30,551 bases of DNA from a virus. Made by a program: the position numbers and the translations under genes. This document shows, piece by piece, positions 2,034-29,730 of this stretch; position 1 is the stretch's first letter; every line of letters begins with the position of its first letter. The notes below the pieces were generated by a model, which had not been told where the DNA came from, did not search any database, and saw only the letters and a list, made by a program, of their open reading frames with translations. The stretch is from positions 1 through 30,551 of the IMG/VR virus record IMGVR_UViG_3300009034_000161, one strand, 5' to 3'.

Positions 2034-2252
2034 ATGACCCCTAAAAAGCTAAAATCAAATATCCAGTGTTTCGGCCCGAACTGTAAAGAAACGGTAGCGA
2101 AAAACCGCCCCTGGTCAAAGTTTCATTCTGCTAAATGCAAAGATAATTACCACATTATTAAATATTGTTTAATATCGAATTTGAGCCTACTAAGCAAACC
2201 CGCCGCCCTGGACATGCTGGAGAACTTAAAAAGGCGAATAGAAAGGCAATGA
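2034..2252 (+). CDS. small Cys/His zinc-binding-type protein, 72 aa
   Basis: Four candidate metal ligands are spaced C12-x4-C17-x13-H31-x3-C35, with basic residues between them and a helical C-terminus ending [11 protein letters not shown]. This resembles small phage zinc-finger proteins (CFGPNC ... FHSAKC). The start at 2034 follows AGAGAGG at 2022-2028. Its stop overlaps the C5 methyltransferase start (ATGA), suggesting coupled translation and perhaps a shared DNA-modification role. Function not known. Confidence 0.65.
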   Translation: MTPKKLKSNIQCFGPNCKETVAKNRPWSKFHSAKCKDNYHIIKYCLISNLSLLSKPAALDMLENLKRRIERQ

Positions 2253-3166
2253 TTTATGGCCTGGATCTCTTTAGTGGTATCGGAGGGCTCACAATCGCCC
2301 TACAAGAGTGGGTCGTGCCGATCGCCTATTGTGAAAACGACAGATATGCTCAAGCGGTCTTGCTTTCAAGAATGTCTGAGGGCGAATTACCGATTGCCCC
2401 GATATGGGACGATGTCAAAACCCTCAGGGCCCGACACTTACCAGTCAAGCCCGACATCATTACAGCAGGTTTCCCGTGCCAGGACATCAGTGTTGCAGGA
2501 GTTGGTAGGGGCTTGGAAGGAAAGCGAAGCGGGTTATTTTTCGAGATCATACGGCTTGCTAATGAGTTACGACCAAAGTTCATCTTCTTGGAAAATGTCT
2601 CAGGTATCGCTACTCGTGGAGGATGGGGAGTCTCTACCGCCTTATCCGAGATACGGTATGATAGTAGATGGGGGATGCTATCCGCTTATGATATGGGGGC
2701 GCCGCATATTAGAGAAAGGTGGTTTTGCTTGGCCTACTCCAATGATTCACGGAAACAACAACCGAAAAGGAGTGGGCAAATCAAGCGGGAACGGTCTTGC
2801 AACGGCAGTAAAGCTTTGGCCTTCCCCCCAAAGCCGGGATTACAGGATCGGACAAGCGAAAAGGGTAGGCAGAATGGGCTATCAGAACAATTTGAACGAT
2901 ATAGTTTCTCTGTTGCCGACTCCGACAGCAAGAGACCGATGGACAAGAGGAAAGGCCGAAGCCTTCCGGAGGAGTCCATGCTTGGATCATGTAGCGGGGG
3001 AAGGGATTGGTGGGAAACTGAACCCGATGTGGGTCGAGTGGTTGATGGGCTTCCCTATCGGGTGGACAGAATTAAGTGCCTGGGTAACGCAGTGGTTACG
3101 TGCCAGGCGAGGGAAGCGTTTGTCAGATTGATGGGACATGCTGGAGAATCTGAGGAGGAGAGTTGA
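2249..3166 (+). CDS. DNA (cytosine-5) methyltransferase, 305 aa
   Basis: Transfers a methyl group from S-adenosylmethionine to C5 of cytosine, probably to shield phage DNA from host restriction. Conserved motifs are visible in order: motif I DLFSGIGG (residues 6-13), catalytic motif IV GFPCQ (74-78, nucleophile Cys77), motif VI ENV (115-117), motif VIII RERWF (155-159) and motif X around GNAVV (279-283). The frame opens at 2165, but motif I needs a start near 2249, and the ATG there overlaps the previous stop (ATGA). The region between motifs VIII and X is the target-recognition part and looks weakly structured and Ser/Arg-rich. Almost the whole gene is overlaid by another long frame (2256-3131). 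No endonuclease partner is seen, so it is probably a solitary phage methyltransferase. Confidence 0.92.
2256..3131 (+). CDS. overlapping alternative-frame protein within the C5 methyltransferase, 291 aa
   Basis: A second frame stays open for 291 codons inside the methyltransferase gene, starting 7 bases after its ATG; AAAGG at 2242-2246 is placed well for the 2256 ATG. From about residue 66 it carries motifs I recognise from stand-alone phage proteins: [24 protein letters not shown] (108-120), PRYGM, repeated [16 protein letters not shown], and near the end [18 protein letters not shown] (253-270). The DNA for motif VI ENV encodes KMSQ here, and the DNA around GNAVV encodes the end of this protein. 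Function unknown. It could be a real overprinted gene or a database family that arises from mis-called frames of phage C5 methyltransferases. Expression is not proven. Confidence 0.5.
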   Translation: MAWISLVVSEGSQSPYKSGSCRSPIVKTTDMLKRSCFQECLRANYRLPRYGTMSKPSGPDTYQSSPTSLQQVSRARTSVLQELVGAWKESEAGYFSRSYGLLMSYDQSSSSWKMSQVSLLVEDGESLPPYPRYGMIVDGGCYPLMIWGRRILEKGGFAWPTPMIHGNNNRKGVGKSSGNGLATAVKLWPSPQSRDYRIGQAKRVGRMGYQNNLNDIVSLLPTPTARDRWTRGKAEAFRRSPCLDHVAGEGIGGKLNPMWVEWLMGFPIGWTELSAWVTQWLRARRGKRLSD

Positions 3167-3897
3167 GAGACTGGATAAATAAAGTCATTTGCGGCGATTG
3201 CTTAGAGGTAATGAAAAAGATACCAGACAAATTTATTGATATGATTCTCTGCGATTTGCCTTATGGGACGACGGCTTGTGAGTGGGATACAATTATCCCC
3301 TTTGAGCCTTTATGGGGATTATATAAAAGGATTATAAAAGATAATGGTGCGATAGTATTATTTGGGAGCCAGCCTTTTACCAGTAAGTTGATTATGAGTA
3401 ATATGGAAATGTTTAAGTATTGTTGGATATGGGACAAAAGACAAAAGGTAGGAATGCTTAATTGCAAAAGAATGCCACTGAAACAACATGAAGATATTTG
3501 TATCTTTTATAAAAATTTGCCAACTTATAATCCACAAAAGACGAAGGGAATTTACAGAAACAAGAAGATACAGCCTACAAAAGAATTTCAAACTTACGGA
3601 TAATTAAAAAACCCGATAAATAATTTTAATGATTCATATTATCCATCTTCGATATTGGAATTTTCAAATGCTAACCAAAAAGATAAATCGCACCCCACTC
3701 AAAAACCAGTAGCTTTAATGGAATACCTGATAAGAACTTATACCAATAAAGGCAATTTGGTATTAGATAGTTGTTTGGGTTCTGGCACAACTGCCGTAGC
3801 TTGTAAATTAATGGGTAGAAATTATATAGGCATAGAGATAAGTCCTGAATATTGTAAGATAGCTGAGAAAAGATTAGCTCAGGGAGTATTGTTTTAG
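3163..3897 (+). pseudogene. DNA N6-A/N4-C methyltransferase interrupted by an in-frame TAA
   Basis: A beta-class (motif IV before motif I) site-specific DNA methyltransferase of about 244 codons. It starts with TTG at 3163, overlapping the previous stop (TTGA), behind GAGGAGGAG at 3151-3159. Motif IV is DLPYG (residues 31-35), followed by [10 protein letters not shown]. The frame then meets TAA at 3601-3603 but continues open in the same frame with HPTQKPV and the AdoMet-binding motif I LDSCLGSGTTAVA (about residue 201 onward) to a TAG at 3895-3897. A single point nonsense mutation explains it best. The downstream piece has no visible ribosome-binding site, although a TTG at 3655 could start it. 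The gene looks more AT-rich than its neighbour, suggesting separate acquisition. Alternatives are a sequencing error, stop readthrough or a two-piece enzyme. Confidence 0.85.
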
Positions 3898-3909
3898 GAA
3901 GGAGGGGTG

Positions 3910-4104
3910 ATGGAATACACTGGAGACCAAGAACACTTACCTGAATGTTGCCCTAAGTGTAAATCGAAAACCATAGATGCTAATTTTGATGGTCTCATTT
4001 GGATTCATAAAGTTAGAGGTAAATGGAGAATAACTAATGCTTATTCACATGACCAATCTGCTATTTTAAGCTGTTCGAGATGCGGATATGAATGGGCAAT
4101 TTAA
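3910..4104 (+). CDS. small zinc-ribbon protein, 64 aa
   Basis: Two CxxC knuckles are visible, C14-P-K-C17 and C55-S-R-C58-G-Y, about 37 residues apart with beta-rich sequence between: a typical zinc ribbon. A GTG at 3907 is also in frame, but GGAAGGAGGGG at 3899-3907 fits the ATG at 3910. It may bind nucleic acid or mediate protein contact; the substrate is unknown. Confidence 0.72.
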   Translation: MEYTGDQEHLPECCPKCKSKTIDANFDGLIWIHKVRGKWRITNAYSHDQSAILSCSRCGYEWAI

Positions 4105-4123
4105 TCGAAAGGGGGTGATAAAA

Positions 4124-4351
4124 GTGGGAGTTATTAATATGGATATTTATGGGAGCTTCCCAGGGGAAGTGCATGGACAGAGATCGTTTAGTGCTATGAC
4201 ACACGGCCATGCCCATGCTGTTACTAAGGCCATAGTTTTTCTGGTAAATAAAGTATTGCCAAAAGCCATTGCCCTCGATCACAAGCTCCATGAGGAAGGA
4301 GAAAAACCATCAAGGGGATTTGACCCAGATAATAAAGGAGGTGATACCTAA
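4124..4351 (+). CDS. conserved small phage protein (HGQRSF / GHAHAV), 75 aa
   Basis: The frame extends back to 4088 but would overlap the zinc-ribbon gene. AAAGGGGGTGAT at 4108-4119 points to the GTG at 4124. The product contains VHGQRSF, HGHAHAVTKAI and ALDHKLHEEG, a pattern I remember in uncharacterised small phage proteins that lie near membrane and lysis-type genes. Several His residues could bind metal, but no enzyme motif is certain. The stop overlaps the next start (TAATG). Confidence 0.7.
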   Translation: MGVINMDIYGSFPGEVHGQRSFSAMTHGHAHAVTKAIVFLVNKVLPKAIALDHKLHEEGEKPSRGFDPDNKGGDT

Positions 4352-4473
4352 TGGAAGAAATTCTTAGAATCGTAATGGAGATCGTGGCGACCGGTGTGGG
4401 GATTCTGGCTATAATCCTTATCAGGAGAGCGGCTAAGAAGCATGGGTTTGAGAGAAGGGAGCGAAATATCTGA
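4351..4473 (+). CDS. single-pass membrane miniprotein, 40 aa
   Basis: ATG at 4351 sits 5 bases after a near-perfect Shine-Dalgarno AAAGGAGGTGAT (4334-4345). The peptide has a short N-terminal amphipathic part, a hydrophobic segment (about residues 8-24, VMEIVATGVGILAIILI) and a strongly basic tail (RRAAKKHGFERRER). This is an inner-membrane protein with the positive end expected inside. It could be a holin-type or anchoring protein; no family assigned. Confidence 0.65.
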   Translation: MEEILRIVMEIVATGVGILAIILIRRAAKKHGFERRERNI

Positions 4474-4712
4474 ATTCAAATGGCAAGCGGATCAAAGGCC
4501 GGGAGAAACTAAGCGAGGCAGTTGCCCTTTTCTCGGAGGAGAAGCCCGGTCATTCTGAGGAGAAGGCTGTGCAGTTAGCACATGAGGCTCTGCTTATTAA
4601 TGGGTTTGGTGCGACCGCTCCGAAGGAATTGACAATACGTGGGAAACCGCCAGAAGGGAGTGGGATAACGAATGTGGTGAACAAGGTCGAAGTTGAAAAA
4701 GGAGGTAGTTAA
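4470..4712 (+). CDS. 80-aa protein with probable CTG start
   Basis: The frame is open from after a TGA at 4449-4451 to TAA at 4710-4712 and has no ATG, GTG or TTG near its beginning. A CTG at 4470 overlaps the previous stop (CTGA), exactly like the ATGA/TTGA junctions elsewhere in the operon, and AAGGGAG at 4455-4461 is correctly spaced. The product has REKLSEAVALF, a helical EEKAVQLAHEALLINGFG, and a C-terminus ending VNKVEVEKGGS. It fills what would otherwise be a 240-base gap. Alternative: entry by a -1 shift from the 40-aa gene, although no slippery heptamer is seen. Confidence 0.5.
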   Translation: MNSNGKRIKGREKLSEAVALFSEEKPGHSEEKAVQLAHEALLINGFGATAPKELTIRGKPPEGSGITNVVNKVEVEKGGS

Positions 4713-24629: not shown

Positions 24630-25574
24630 TTAAATACCAGTCAGAAAGCACATTGCTAAGGGTCGTCTGATAACTACGCCGGCGTTTCGGGCCTCACCGG
24701 GGATTATAAATTCAAGATTGCGTGGCTGCACTGGCTGTAAAATAAGTTCCAAGGGAATCCGTTGCTCCAGCACTTCGGGATCTTTTTCATAGATCACCGC
24801 TCCGTCCTCAGTACCGCCAGTGAAGGCCAGTTCTAACTCCACAGGCAATGTAGTAATTGTTGACAGGCCATAAGCTTCCTTGTTATTTAAAACGAACTGA
24901 AGCACGGTAACATCGCTATGTGTGCTCCGGGGCAGGCCGGCAATAATATCATACTGTGGAATCGGAAGCAACATTGTGTCGGCCTGATGAACGCCCTTGC
25001 TCTGAGTGCGAACCTTTGAGGTTCCGAGCCTGATGTCATTGATGATTTCGTCCGCCGTTTTCAGAGCCCAAGTGTAGCCCCCCGTTCCGGTTGGCACAGC
25101 CTGAGTCGGCACATTGGTGTTATTTAAAACACCGAGTAGGCCAGTCTCGGTATCGCCATTCCAGCAGATGTTATTTTCTTTTTCCCTGGTAGCCCTCCGT
25201 AGAGAGGCGGCTTGCTCACCATCGAGATCAACACCCGCCATCATAGCTGCCCGGATATCCTGAGTGCTATATCCAATCGCCCCACCAAGTCCCTTAACAT
25301 TAGCACTGTATTCCTTGGCATATACATCCACCCTGGGAAGATCATCAGCATAATTAGCAATAACCTTGACCATACCTACCTGAGTTAGCATTCGATAGGT
25401 AATAGTATTAGCCCCTGCGTTATCCCGATTTGATACCGGAATTAGATCCCGATATTTAAGCTCTCTTTGTAACAAACGATAAACGGTAGCCTCGATTGAT
25501 TCCAACTGCCTTGCGAAAAATACCGTTTCTTGAGCGTCAAGATGAAACTTAACTGCGTCCATTTTAATAGGCAT
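24630..25574 (-). CDS. major capsid protein (DUF2184-like), 314 aa
   Basis: Forms the icosahedral shell. The overall pattern is that of DUF2184 capsids: MDAVKFHLDAQETVFFARQL, then LKYRDLIPVSNRDNAGANTI, GYSTQDIRAAMMAGVDLDGE, IPLELILQPVQPRNLEFIIP and the end VVIRRPLAMCF. Length and position between the decoration gene and connectors agree. A hairpin lies just downstream. Confidence 0.88.
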   Translation of the reverse strand: MPIKMDAVKFHLDAQETVFFARQLESIEATVYRLLQRELKYRDLIPVSNRDNAGANTITYRMLTQVGMVKVIANYADDLPRVDVYAKEYSANVKGLGGAIGYSTQDIRAAMMAGVDLDGEQAASLRRATREKENNICWNGDTETGLLGVLNNTNVPTQAVPTGTGGYTWALKTADEIINDIRLGTSKVRTQSKGVHQADTMLLPIPQYDIIAGLPRSTHSDVTVLQFVLNNKEAYGLSTITTLPVELELAFTGGTEDGAVIYEKDPEVLEQRIPLELILQPVQPRNLEFIIPGEARNAGVVIRRPLAMCFLTGI

Positions 25575-25616: not shown

Positions 25617-26411
25617 CTATGTGATAGTAGGTAGATTAATCTCAAGAATCGTCAGTTCCCCGGCTCCAGCAGATAGCTTATATCGAGTTCCCGGCAGAGC
25701 ACCGGCATCCGTTCCATCAACATCACTTCGGAAAGCTCCAACTTGCTCCCCGGCCCCGGCAACTGCCCTAACAAAAGCCTGCCCACCAGCGATAACGGCA
25801 TCCTCAACAGTAACCCATATCCTGCCCCTTCGCACAACACTCATTGCGGAAGCTAACGGATAACCAACGTTATTTGCATTTAGAACCGCCTGCTCAAGAG
25901 CCTGAGTTCTAACCGCTACCCCCAGGGCTCGGTTAGTATCGGTGATCTGAGTCACCAGAGTCGGCAAGTGGGCCAGATTATCAGCACCACCAGCGGCGAG
26001 AGCACCTGTGTCCTGCACAACACAAAGACCAAAATTGACTCCAGCCTCATTTGGTATCTGCTCCTCAGTGGTGCAATTAAGAGTTCCAACACAGGTGAAA
26101 GCAACACCGGCAACATCGGCCTCAACATTCATAAAATCGCCATCGTCTATTGCCAGAACTGGCTCGGCTCCAGCATTAATAGCGGCAACAAGCAAATCCA
26201 CCAATTCCGCCTTAGTCTTTGCGGCTGAACCGGAATTGACATTAAAGGCCGTCCCATTAATAGTTACAGTTGTTGAAAGATCGATAGCGGTAATGGTAAC
26301 ACGAAAAACCTGCTTACTGTTATTGATATAGGTTGCTATATCGTGATACCCGGAATCGGCAAGTGCACCTTGAACTCCTACTGCCATATTATCATTTACT
26401 GCTGTCTGCAT
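25617..26411 (-). CDS. head decoration/cement protein with an inserted module, 264 aa
   Basis: N-terminal MQTAVNDNMAVGVQGALADS and the C-terminal half (YPLASAMSVVRRGRIWVTVE; AFVRAVAGAGEQVGAF) match structural cement proteins located before the capsid gene. Residues about 36-113 contain a beta module (VTINGTAFNVNSGSAAKTKA ... LVAAINAGAEPVLAID) closely like the two modules in the tail sheath. Without this insert the protein would be close to the typical cement length. Confidence 0.78.
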   Translation of the reverse strand: MQTAVNDNMAVGVQGALADSGYHDIATYINNSKQVFRVTITAIDLSTTVTINGTAFNVNSGSAAKTKAELVDLLVAAINAGAEPVLAIDDGDFMNVEADVAGVAFTCVGTLNCTTEEQIPNEAGVNFGLCVVQDTGALAAGGADNLAHLPTLVTQITDTNRALGVAVRTQALEQAVLNANNVGYPLASAMSVVRRGRIWVTVEDAVIAGGQAFVRAVAGAGEQVGAFRSDVDGTDAGALPGTRYKLSAGAGELTILEINLPTIT

Positions 26412-26456: not shown

Positions 26457-27056
26457 TTATTTCGCTGGGGTTTGCTCCGCCGGTTTCTCCTTATGAAGCC
26501 CTTGGCTATAATCAATCATATCCTGCCGGGGGTCTTTGGGAGTTCCGGCATCCGCCCTAAGCTCATCAGCATTGATGAGGAAAGTCTTCATACTATCATC
26601 CCCAGCATCGGTCTTTTCCACCGCCTCCCGGATAGTATCAAAGCGGGCCTGGATATATTCATCACTCTTTCCCTCGGAATCGAAATCCTTTGACACTGAC
26701 TTGATGACATCCAGCCTGATGGTCTTATCGTCCTTGTCCTTATGTTCAACCTTGAGCTTATCGGCCAGATCCTCTAAGTCTTTCCGGGCCTTGAGCATTG
26801 TCTGAATCTTATCTGAGGCCGGATCTTTCCAATCCTCTAAATCCTTTTTCACCTTTTCAAGATCCTCTGCACTGGCATCAAGACGACCCTGAAGAGCATC
26901 GCCCGCCTTAGCCAAGTAATCAATAATGCCCACAGCTTCATCCAGTTTCCCGGACAGCTTTTCAACAGTTTGCGTGGCCTCGTCCGGTATCTCAGTATCC
27001 ATTGCGTCCATATTAAGGCCAGGGGCTTTAATTTCATCTCGCTTGAATTTAAACAT
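26457..27056 (-). CDS. scaffold protein from internal start, 199 aa
   Basis: Within the protease frame an ATG at 27056 (MFKFKRDEIKAPG) is preceded by AAGGAGG with an 8-base gap (minus strand, about 27065-27071). This would make the helical, charged C-terminal region alone (EKLSGKLDEAVGIIDYLA ... VEKVKKDLEDWKD style coiled coil). Nested scaffolds of this kind are known in lambda and relatives. Directly visible: the strong site and start; inferred: that it is used. Confidence 0.65.
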   Translation of the reverse strand: MFKFKRDEIKAPGLNMDAMDTEIPDEATQTVEKLSGKLDEAVGIIDYLAKAGDALQGRLDASAEDLEKVKKDLEDWKDPASDKIQTMLKARKDLEDLADKLKVEHKDKDDKTIRLDVIKSVSKDFDSEGKSDEYIQARFDTIREAVEKTDAGDDSMKTFLINADELRADAGTPKDPRQDMIDYSQGLHKEKPAEQTPAK

Positions 27057-28016
27057 GATAACATCCTCCTTAGTTTTCTGGTCTAATCTTAGTCTCGCAT
27101 CTCTACCGGCACGGCCAGTAGCAACGAGACTCAAATGATTATATTGAATATTAGATTGAATTGCATCGTAAGTTTCACCGTTAAATTCGCCAGGTATCGG
27201 GTCAACATCACATTTATAGCCTAATGATATTTCGTAATTACCAAGTCCAGTATCGTGGCGGTCTTGAATTTCTTTAACTAAATTTTTATCTGTTATTACT
27301 AATCGGCAAGCCAGAAAATCACCGTCTCTATGTATCGTATCGCCAGTCGTTCCGATTTGCAATTCCTTAACATTGTCAACACTAACCATTTCCGATGGGT
27401 GTTTTAAGGTGACCGGAATGAGCTTTAAGCTCTCCATCGAATCCTCATTAAATACTTCCCCTTCTGGTCTAAATTCTTTAACTCCACCAATACCTGTGTA
27501 ATCAAATACTCCTGTCCGAGTAACAGTGGCATCGGCAACAATAAAACCCTGATTAGTTATTTTGAATTTATCCTCACGGATAGAAATATCATATCGGTCT
27601 TGTCTTTCGCCGGGATGCTTATCGTGAGCTTTGAGAGATAGATTCCCAATGCTATTATCTTTTTTATTCCCGTTTTTGTGATGCAGATCAAAGCCTTTTG
27701 GTATTGGGCCGTTTCGTTTTTCCCATATTTCCCGTGCTATTCTTGCATCTTTACAGGCTTCAGGATCGGAGGCATCTTTTTTAGCAGCTTCAAAAGTTCC
27801 TTCGTGCTCTTTACAATGAGTCTCCGCTTCCCCGGCAGTCCACTTATTTTTATCGTAACGATAGGCTTGCTCAGTCATTGTATCCTCACCTTTGAGCCTA
27901 CCTAAGATAATGGAATAGACTTTACCAGCGTGTTTGCGGGTCATTCTGCGGAAGCGGCCTTCTTGAAATGATTCAGGGGATTTTAAACGACAGGCATGTT
28001 CATTTGGGAATGGCAT
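26457..28016 (-). CDS. DUF2213-type capsid maturation protease with HNH domain, 519 aa
   Basis: Probable prohead protease-scaffold polyprotein. Residues 1-75 carry a phage start motif (PFPNEHACRLKSPESFQEG ... RYDKNKWTAGEAE). Residues about 92-140 contain an HNH nuclease-type motif (FDLHHKNGNKKDNSIGNLSL). Residues 180-312 match DUF2213 (LIPVTLKHPSEM; GNYEISLGYKCD; YNHLSLVATGRAGRDARL); His206 and Ser264 are plausible catalytic residues. The C-terminus from residue 321 is a charged coiled-coil scaffold with its own start. An alternative start at 27878 has AAAGGTGAGG, but the upstream part is conserved-looking. Confidence 0.75.
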   Translation of the reverse strand: MPFPNEHACRLKSPESFQEGRFRRMTRKHAGKVYSIILGRLKGEDTMTEQAYRYDKNKWTAGEAETHCKEHEGTFEAAKKDASDPEACKDARIAREIWEKRNGPIPKGFDLHHKNGNKKDNSIGNLSLKAHDKHPGERQDRYDISIREDKFKITNQGFIVADATVTRTGVFDYTGIGGVKEFRPEGEVFNEDSMESLKLIPVTLKHPSEMVSVDNVKELQIGTTGDTIHRDGDFLACRLVITDKNLVKEIQDRHDTGLGNYEISLGYKCDVDPIPGEFNGETYDAIQSNIQYNHLSLVATGRAGRDARLRLDQKTKEDVIMFKFKRDEIKAPGLNMDAMDTEIPDEATQTVEKLSGKLDEAVGIIDYLAKAGDALQGRLDASAEDLEKVKKDLEDWKDPASDKIQTMLKARKDLEDLADKLKVEHKDKDDKTIRLDVIKSVSKDFDSEGKSDEYIQARFDTIREAVEKTDAGDDSMKTFLINADELRADAGTPKDPRQDMIDYSQGLHKEKPAEQTPAK

Positions 28017-28048: not shown

Positions 28049-28228
28049 TCAAGGATTATTTTCAGTTGAGGGATTTGGCAGGTTATTTTTCTTCTTGATA
28101 TTATGAAGTAGAACCTTGACGCTTCCTTCCGGCATAAGCAATAATTCCTCTATCTGTGAACACTTTAAGCCACTTGCTCTGAGCCTTAACACTCGCTGTC
28201 TCCTTGCTTCGGCTTCTGCTTTTCTCAT
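28049..28228 (-). CDS. small helix-turn-helix protein, 59 aa
   Basis: A longer frame opens at 28330, but the ATG at 28228 overlaps the methyltransferase stop by one base (TGATGA) and lies behind GAAGGGA. The product begins MRKAEAEARRQRVLRLRASG and has CSQIEELLLMPEGSVKVLLH, which resembles a sigma-70 region-4-type helix-turn-helix. It could control the head operon or guide methyltransferase expression; no DNA target is visible. Confidence 0.7.
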   Translation of the reverse strand: MRKAEAEARRQRVLRLRASGLKCSQIEELLLMPEGSVKVLLHNIKKKNNLPNPSTENNP

Positions 28229-29730
28229 CAATCTCCCTTCGGTAATAGTTTCGCTTTCTTGCCCGTGTAATCCTCCCATCGTTTGATAATTACATCGACA
28301 TAAATGGGATCGATCTCCATCCCATAACATATCCGGTTAGTCTTTTCGCAAGCTATGAGAGTGGAGCCGGAGCCGAGGAAGGAATCCAAGACTAAGTCAT
28401 TCTTATTTGATGTTGTAATTATTCCCCGTTCACATATCTCTATGGGCTTAACTGTCGGATGTTTATCTGTTGTTGTTAATTTTTCAAGTTTCCAAACATC
28501 TGTCCAGCCATTTGTATTATCAAAATAGCCACGAAGATCATCATATTCTCTACGAATTTTATTGTATTCCTTACGGAATGCTTTTTTAGCATTTTTTTGT
28601 AATGTTTCATATACTTCACGGGTAGGGAATGACCATTGAGATTTACCAAACCAATGATCTCTACTTAAATCTGAATGACCAATCATTTTCTTAACGGTTG
28701 GTATATCCCAACCCATCTTTTTTCTCTCTTTATCTAAATATTTTCTGATTGGGTCGAAACCATTCCAATAATGTTCAGCGTTCGGGGAAACAGACCAAGC
28801 GCCGTTTTGAAATGGTTGTCCATAAATACAAAGCAGGCAGGCTGCATAGTTTTCTGGTAATTGCCTAAACTCAGGAGAGTTAATGCCTTGTATATAACTC
28901 TTTTGCCAAATAATAAAATTCCTAAAATTACACTTCCCTTGTGGCTTAATAATTTGTTCCCAATATCTACTTAAACCATCGAAGTATCCCCACACATAAA
29001 AATAGCCATTGTCTTTTAGATTTAATAAAAAATTGTCTGTGAACTGTCTATAAAAATTAAGCCAGTCATCTTCTTTTAGATCATCATTTATAATCTCTTT
29101 ATTTATCCCATAAGGCGGATCGGTAAATACCATGTCCGCCCGCTTCCCATTCATCAGCTTATCAACATCTTCCCGGCAAGTAGAATCACCGCACATAACT
29201 TTATGCTTATCAAGCTGATAAATCTGCCCTCGCTTTGACTTAGCCTTTTTAGGAATTTCGGGAATGTCATCTTCCCCAGTCTGAGCAATCTCTTTTTCAA
29301 ACCAACCTATCTTAAACTTATCCATATTAAAATCAGGCAGGTCAAGGCTACCAAAATCAATATCCAAGCCTTGAATAAATTCATAAAGCCCCTCATCAGT
29401 TACCTTGCCAAACTGAGAAATATAGCCAAGCAATCGTTCCTTAGCTTCGTTTATATCCTTCGCTTGTATCTCTACGATAGGGAGCTTATTACCGGGAAGT
29501 GAATAGCCGTCCTCAATCATCTTTTGCACAGTTCTAATTCTCTGAGTGCCGTCAAGCACCTTACCCTTCCAAACGAATATTGGGGCGTCAAAGCCGAGGC
29601 GGGCAATTCTATCCTTCAGCTTATCGTAATTAACCTTACTCAGTTCCTTGAGATTGCCCTGAATGATTTCAAGTTTGTTAATAGGAATAAGGGGACAGTT
29701 TTTAACCTTGATTTGGATTTCGGTATTCAT
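28228..29730 (-). CDS. ParB-like / DNA methyltransferase fusion, 500 aa
   Basis: Residues about 11-105 form a ParB/Srx-type domain (ISQ-style segment VLDGTQRIRTVQKMIEDG in place of the usual DGHHR box). Residues 165-495 are an adenine-N6/cytosine-N4 methyltransferase with motif IV TDPPYG (203-208) and motif I DSFLGSGS (449-456) in beta-class order. The region between (YLDKERKKMGWDIPTVKKMI ... WSFPTREVYETLQ) is the recognition domain and looks notably AT-rich. The gene sits between head morphogenesis and protease genes; such ParB-methylase fusions are frequent in phages, where the ParB part may help DNA binding. Confidence 0.9.
   Translation of the reverse strand: MNTEIQIKVKNCPLIPINKLEIIQGNLKELSKVNYDKLKDRIARLGFDAPIFVWKGKVLDGTQRIRTVQKMIEDGYSLPGNKLPIVEIQAKDINEAKERLLGYISQFGKVTDEGLYEFIQGLDIDFGSLDLPDFNMDKFKIGWFEKEIAQTGEDDIPEIPKKAKSKRGQIYQLDKHKVMCGDSTCREDVDKLMNGKRADMVFTDPPYGINKEIINDDLKEDDWLNFYRQFTDNFLLNLKDNGYFYVWGYFDGLSRYWEQIIKPQGKCNFRNFIIWQKSYIQGINSPEFRQLPENYAACLLCIYGQPFQNGAWSVSPNAEHYWNGFDPIRKYLDKERKKMGWDIPTVKKMIGHSDLSRDHWFGKSQWSFPTREVYETLQKNAKKAFRKEYNKIRREYDDLRGYFDNTNGWTDVWKLEKLTTTDKHPTVKPIEICERGIITTSNKNDLVLDSFLGSGSTLIACEKTNRICYGMEIDPIYVDVIIKRWEDYTGKKAKLLPKGD

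Follow-up and report, generated by a model that had tools for sequence, protein, structure and literature searches.

How an HNH nuclease-like segment came to share one reading frame with a prohead protease, and what it could do there, is the question raised by a single gene of the window, by which we mean the whole stretch of viral DNA that was analysed (30,551 nucleotides, record IMGVR_UViG_3300009034_000161). The gene is a 519-aa ORF at 26457-28016 on the minus strand, and the plus strand is stop-rich in that frame. The features of the locus, with L001 denoting the contig of the nearest relative, are as follows.

26457..28016, minus strand: fusion ORF of 519 aa (PNEH module, HNH_3 and DUF2213 prohead protease/scaffold)
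27777..28016, minus strand: PNEH module, residues 1-80 (MPFPNEHACRL...WTAGEAETHCKEHEGTFEAA)
27606..27767, minus strand: HNH segment, residues 84-137 (Pfam HNH_3, fragment model, relatives)
27678..27683, minus strand: H112-H113 (ungapped profile alignment to 1u3e; invariant among relatives)
27642..27644, minus strand: N125, corresponding to N87 of I-HmuI
27615..27617, minus strand: H134, putative metal ligand, corresponding to N96 of I-HmuI by extrapolated ungapped offset
27090..27563, minus strand: DUF2213 protease domain, residues 152-309 (Pfam, alignments, Foldseek)
26460..26984, minus strand: C-terminal scaffold-like region, residues 345-519, helical/coiled-coil by structure prediction
28049..28330, minus strand: small HTH protein gene, just upstream, where the variable region shared with L001 begins
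28228..29730, minus strand: ParB-like/N6_N4 DNA methyltransferase gene (domain matches), mostly deleted in L001
29730..30371, minus strand: MuF-type minor head protein, upstream gene (domain matches)
25617..26411, minus strand: structural cement protein gene, next downstream (Pfam)
24630..25574, minus strand: major capsid protein gene (Pfam, PHROGs)

We found that the fusion gene is a normal DUF2213 capsid-maturation protease/scaffold gene at its normal place in the head operon. Residues 152-309 match DUF2213 (PF09979; Pfam, E=1.4e-37, 129.7 bits against a gathering score of 22), PHROGs assigns the protein to the head maturation proteases (3e-79), and H206 and S264, the putative catalytic dyad, are invariant in alignment A1 and in 52 further DUF2213 sequences. 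In the full-length structure prediction, residues ~150-305 lie mostly above pLDDT 90, with strands starting at ~159, and are followed by a helix (345-397) and a helical tail; the best Foldseek match of the protease fold was T4 gp21 (5jbl; prob 1.00, E 5e-4), followed by HCMV assemblin. The operon order (MuF, MTase/HTH, protease, cement, MCP) is that of Pam3, TLS and phiEt88, and the protease gene stands between the minor head/portal genes and the cement/MCP genes, as expected for DUF2213 proteases. The presence of tail sheath, baseplate and tape-measure genes identifies a contractile-tailed phage. No close DNA relatives were found among isolated phages, and searching with the major capsid protein gave no relatives either. 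The DUF2213 head maturation proteases of Pam3 (gp5), TLS (hspA), phiEt88 and Pa193 (gp24) share with the window protein the domain, the invariant His/Ser, the helical C-terminal region and the gene order, and Pa193 gp24 (9B40) matches it in sequence at E=4e-7. However, the known members begin at or near the domain, as in the proteins of the isolated phages Pam3, S-CBS4, RHph_N28_2, TLS and phiEt88 in alignment A1, whereas the window protein has ~140 extra N-terminal residues that include the HNH. An internal ATG (M47; 27876-27878, minus strand), which follows AAAGGTGAGGATACA, has a better ribosome-binding site than the annotated start, so that a shorter product is possible. Elsewhere in the window there is a second DNA methyltransferase gene (2165-3166, plus strand; phrog_363, 1e-62).

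The initial annotation had reported an HNH signature at residues ~92-140, between an N-terminal motif and the protease, and this was borne out: Pfam HNH_3 (PF13392) matches residues 97-129 (E=9.2e-11, 41.6 bits against a gathering score of 24.8), DLHHKNGNKKDNSIGNL forms residues 110-126 of the 519-aa protein, and the PHROGs secondary matches of the fusion protein include several HNH endonuclease families (down to 4e-8). Judged by these profile scores, the HNH match is far above chance level. The same annotation had placed the HNH inside the capsid maturation protease, which holds in that the two belong to one protein and one frame; the protease fold itself does not contain it, as the full-length prediction puts the HNH in the preceding linker, between the PNEH module (1-80) and the protease. 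Its point of addition lies between 'FEAAKK' and 'RQDRYD'. Considering that the PNEH module is joined directly to DUF2213 in three other loci (L026, L108 and L254), the HNH is best described as an addition to the linker. A foreign base composition was also considered and was not distinctive, the G+C of the segments being similar (44%, 43% and 39%).

Could the HNH be a normal part of DUF2213 proteins? This was rejected, since alignment A1 and two censuses show members that do not have it. With the first Met taken as the start, the extension in front of the domain was shorter than 40 residues in 174 of 202 DUF2213 ORFs of the first local census, and the only HNH carrier there was the window protein, listed twice (as the window and as L008). 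The larger set comprised 340 loci with 214 DUF2213, 67 HNH and 84 PNEH ORFs, the window being counted twice, and there too the window held the only ORF joining an HNH with DUF2213 or PNEH. The HNH is thus found on 1 of ~213 DUF2213 ORFs and on none of the 82 other PNEH ORFs, a rarity that applies to loci ranked by similarity to the window protein and not to all phages. Moreover, in the P0001 search of 398 + 398 genomes, drawn from two phyla, no single match covered both HNH and DUF2213. The HNH-DUF2213 fusion is real, rare and in frame; it is represented by a single sequence, and no close homologue was found.

Whether the segment could still cut DNA was approached through its residues and its predicted fold. 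A profile search of solved structures picked I-HmuI (1u3e; E=0.004, ungapped), whose D74-H75-N87 align with H112-H113-N125 of the window protein, while the pairing of H134 with N96 is extrapolated, the printed 1u3e alignment stopping at residue 94. By analogy with I-HmuI, we take H112-H113 to be a putative metal ligand and general base, and H134 presumably a further metal ligand. All four residues are invariant in an alignment of 13 sequences (A8; the window protein and 12 free-standing relatives). In the 12 relatives an extra histidine lies four residues past H134 (five in L310), where the window protein has R138 beside the junction; with the fusion, the usual HxxxH loses its second histidine. 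The HNH was modelled alone, as joint PNEH/HNH/DUF2213 alignments misplaced the HNH rows. Structure prediction, which had been proposed as a check on this region, recovered part of the fold: the fragment model has a helix (87-102) and both strands (109-113 and 126-130) at pLDDT 86-91, but the closing C-terminal helix is absent and residues 131 onwards are at pLDDT ~50. The full-length model gives the helix at ~85-102 and low confidence at residues 107-134, because its alignment contained no HNH rows. Foldseek found no match at E<=0.001 for the 70-residue HNH model, and the comparison with I-HmuI was weak by both measures (Foldseek prob 0.51, VIA Z 3.1). The I-HmuI/HNH_3 phage endonucleases thus share the H-H..N..H motif with the window protein, its last pairing being extrapolated; unlike them, the window HNH is fused, has no DNA-binding part and has its C-terminal helix truncated by the junction. 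The unpredicted closing helix, together with R138 in place of histidine, suggests that the HNH may be inactive. As to the functional nuclease proposed in the initial annotation, the segment keeps the catalytic residues and loses part of its C-terminal helix to the fusion, and retained nuclease activity seems to us conceivable, if somewhat doubtful.

The origin of the segment is illuminated by L001, in which the DNA is ~84% identical to the window through MuF and again from protease residue ~137, and in which a different phage cassette (MPIPTKNPGEKESAFISRCM...SWAAVDKSKLPKSCFLW...) begins at the start codon and takes the place of residues 1-~136. An opening like this one, MPI...SRC...QAVAIC..W, precedes DUF2213 in L095, and the HNH-less PNEH-DUF2213 proteins are only 30-37% identical to the window protein. 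Taken together, the replacement in L001 and the direct PNEH-DUF2213 joins indicate that the N-terminal cassette to which the HNH belongs is exchangeable. L001 itself is a short contig whose protease frame enters unrelated repeat-like sequence at 3735-4276, so its 3' end may be a chimeric assembly. At 1874-2095 of this contig a deletion of ~1.2 kb, as compared with the window, leaves the ParB-like/MTase gene with an ORF of only 73 aa, and the alignments flanking the deletion overlap by ~19 bases.

The first part of the cassette, the PNEH module, is predicted to be a confidently folded domain (strand-strand-strand-strand-helix-strand, the last strand short; ~80 residues, pLDDT 96-98), and as such it is an unnamed domain without a Pfam match that merits its own family model. 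It also occurs alone, in proteins of ~100 residues, and at the N-terminus of apparently several protease types, of which those other than DUF2213 were assigned by eye and not by profile, as well as at the C-terminus in L012 (Pfam Peptidase_S78) and L073. The N-terminus of the window protein matches Roseobacter and Synechococcus phage capsid polyproteins; no plasmid copies of this region were found, and a stand-alone PNEH protein (L013) matched nothing from isolated phages at E<=0.01.

As for the HNH, the sequences nearest to it among viral contigs belong to free-standing phage HNH proteins or to intein endonucleases, none of those examined being fused to a protease. In Klebsiella phage PWKp9B a free-standing HNH gene lies between the scaffold and capsid genes, and nuclease genes are known from exchange boundaries in phages (PMC10448857). 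From these sequence comparisons, an origin of the HNH by modular capture is well supported. A fragment of a free-standing phage HNH_3 gene of homing type has most probably been captured in frame, by recombination, into the PNEH-protease linker, giving an N-terminal cassette (1-~136) that consists of the PNEH module and then the HNH_3 endonuclease fragment. Since the HNH is N-terminal on a DUF2213 protein, which presumably acts inside the prohead, it would lie inside the head; the scaffold-protease would carry it there as an accessory or passenger domain. Such carriage, already suggested in the initial annotation, is plausible by analogy with the DUF2213 relative Pa193 gp24, which LC-MS detected in mature virions and whose helix-turn-helix lies at the five-fold vertex on the inner side (PMC11042391). 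Provided that metal binding survives in the shortened fold, the HNH domain might nick DNA weakly, either during packaging or once ejected; failing that, it would be a neutral linker remnant. The whole reading, an exchangeable PNEH-HNH cassette on a normal protease with a captured HNH fragment that is carried into the prohead, is the one we favour and consider rather probable.

The free-standing homing-type or intein relatives, the PWKp9B gene and the nuclease genes at exchange boundaries would also suit a selfish homing insertion kept in frame in an essential head gene, as the initial annotation had suggested. HNH homing insertions that can be read in frame do exist, and the ShiLan element in a phage methylase is likewise an HNH-bearing insertion that keeps the host frame open (PMC11855218). 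However, the HNH of ShiLan lies in another frame than its host gene, whereas that of the window is in the protein's own frame. Pfam shows only HNH_3, DUF2213 and weak, sub-cutoff coiled-coil matches and gives no sign of an AP2, NUMOD or intein part, and the HNH with its flank amounts to only ~55 residues. Moreover, the corresponding site in L001 is occupied by a different cassette instead of being empty. The suggestion was not upheld by these observations, and we regard a homing insertion as unlikely. A hidden out-of-frame HNH of the ShiLan kind was also sought and rejected, the two alternative coding-strand frames having no separate HNH ORF.

A second alternative, that the HNH enters the virion together with the protease and, after ejection into the host, cuts the DNA of the host or of rivals, draws on other enzymes found in the same slot. 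Nudix hydrolase domains (E~1e-14) stand in front of DUF2213 in two bacterial-genome contigs (L235:3458-4300 and L244:3371-4300), and a DUF2213 protein in L277 (2428-3100) carries an N-terminal 2H phosphoesterase with an additional Acb1 match slightly below the cutoff (E=2.4e-5), on which basis the domain is possibly a virion-carried, anti-CBASS Acb1-like counter-defence. Phage fusions that join a Nudix domain to MuF, to portal or to the capsid-processing serine peptidase have been described, and injection of the domain has been proposed (PMC9503650), and effector fusions to MuF, and also to portal, have been published (PMC5512222). The Nudix-peptidase fusions, with their equivalents in L235 and L244, likewise have an enzymatic domain N-terminal on a head protease; the window protein differs in carrying an HNH nuclease with the PNEH module in front. 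Accessory domains on head proteases are thus already known, and the HNH variant is new. Against delivery as an effector, the role of DUF2213 proteins is that of scaffold and protease, the greater part of the protein may already be gone when packaging begins, and HNH activity is doubtful, so that we consider this alternative improbable as well. One further DUF2213 protein (L168:2656-3000) has an N-terminal CxxC..HHH..CxxCH zinc-ribbon/HNH-like domain, whose relatives are found in phage proteins bearing the annotation baseplate wedge gp25 or homing endonuclease.

A functional packaging nuclease, which the protease would bring to the prohead to aid DNA cutting or processing by the terminase, has its model in HK97 gp74, also an HNH nuclease tied to head assembly and packaging, which stimulates the cleavage of cos when packaging is reconstituted (PMC9410871). 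The retained I-HmuI-type catalytic residues and the location of scaffold-proteases inside the prohead are consistent with such a role. However, gp74-type HNH proteins are free-standing, have no protease fusion and work with the terminase outside the shell, so that a fusion to the internal scaffold would be on the wrong side. Moreover, the HNH is absent from all other DUF2213 phages examined, and its fold in the window protein is shortened; this role appears very unlikely. Finally, an assembly artefact joining two unrelated contigs, which the metagenomic source of the record and the single copy of the fusion might suggest, is extremely improbable given the reading frame unbroken across three domains, the recurrence of the PNEH-DUF2213 pairing in other loci, the flanking operon in order and the similar G+C of the segments.

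Beyond the capture reading, one may conjecture that the N-terminus of the prohead protease is a general loading slot whose modules (HNH, Nudix, Acb1-like) enter the prohead and are ejected into the host, with PNEH acting across unrelated protease types and an active nuclease as the cargo here, a generalization to which we attach little credence. If the HNH is active, the capsid protease would be a vehicle that sets a nuclease beside packaged DNA, which invites the question of what keeps the phage's own genome from being cut. With an inactive HNH, the comparison still suggests a recombination slot for interchangeable modules at the front of the prohead protease, the PNEH module common to protease families being one of them, and this pattern makes protease-carried virion cargo directly testable. 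In L276 (~4310-4600), PNEH is a separate short ORF that overlaps the 3' end of a DUF2213 gene, an arrangement suggesting that the two may work together.
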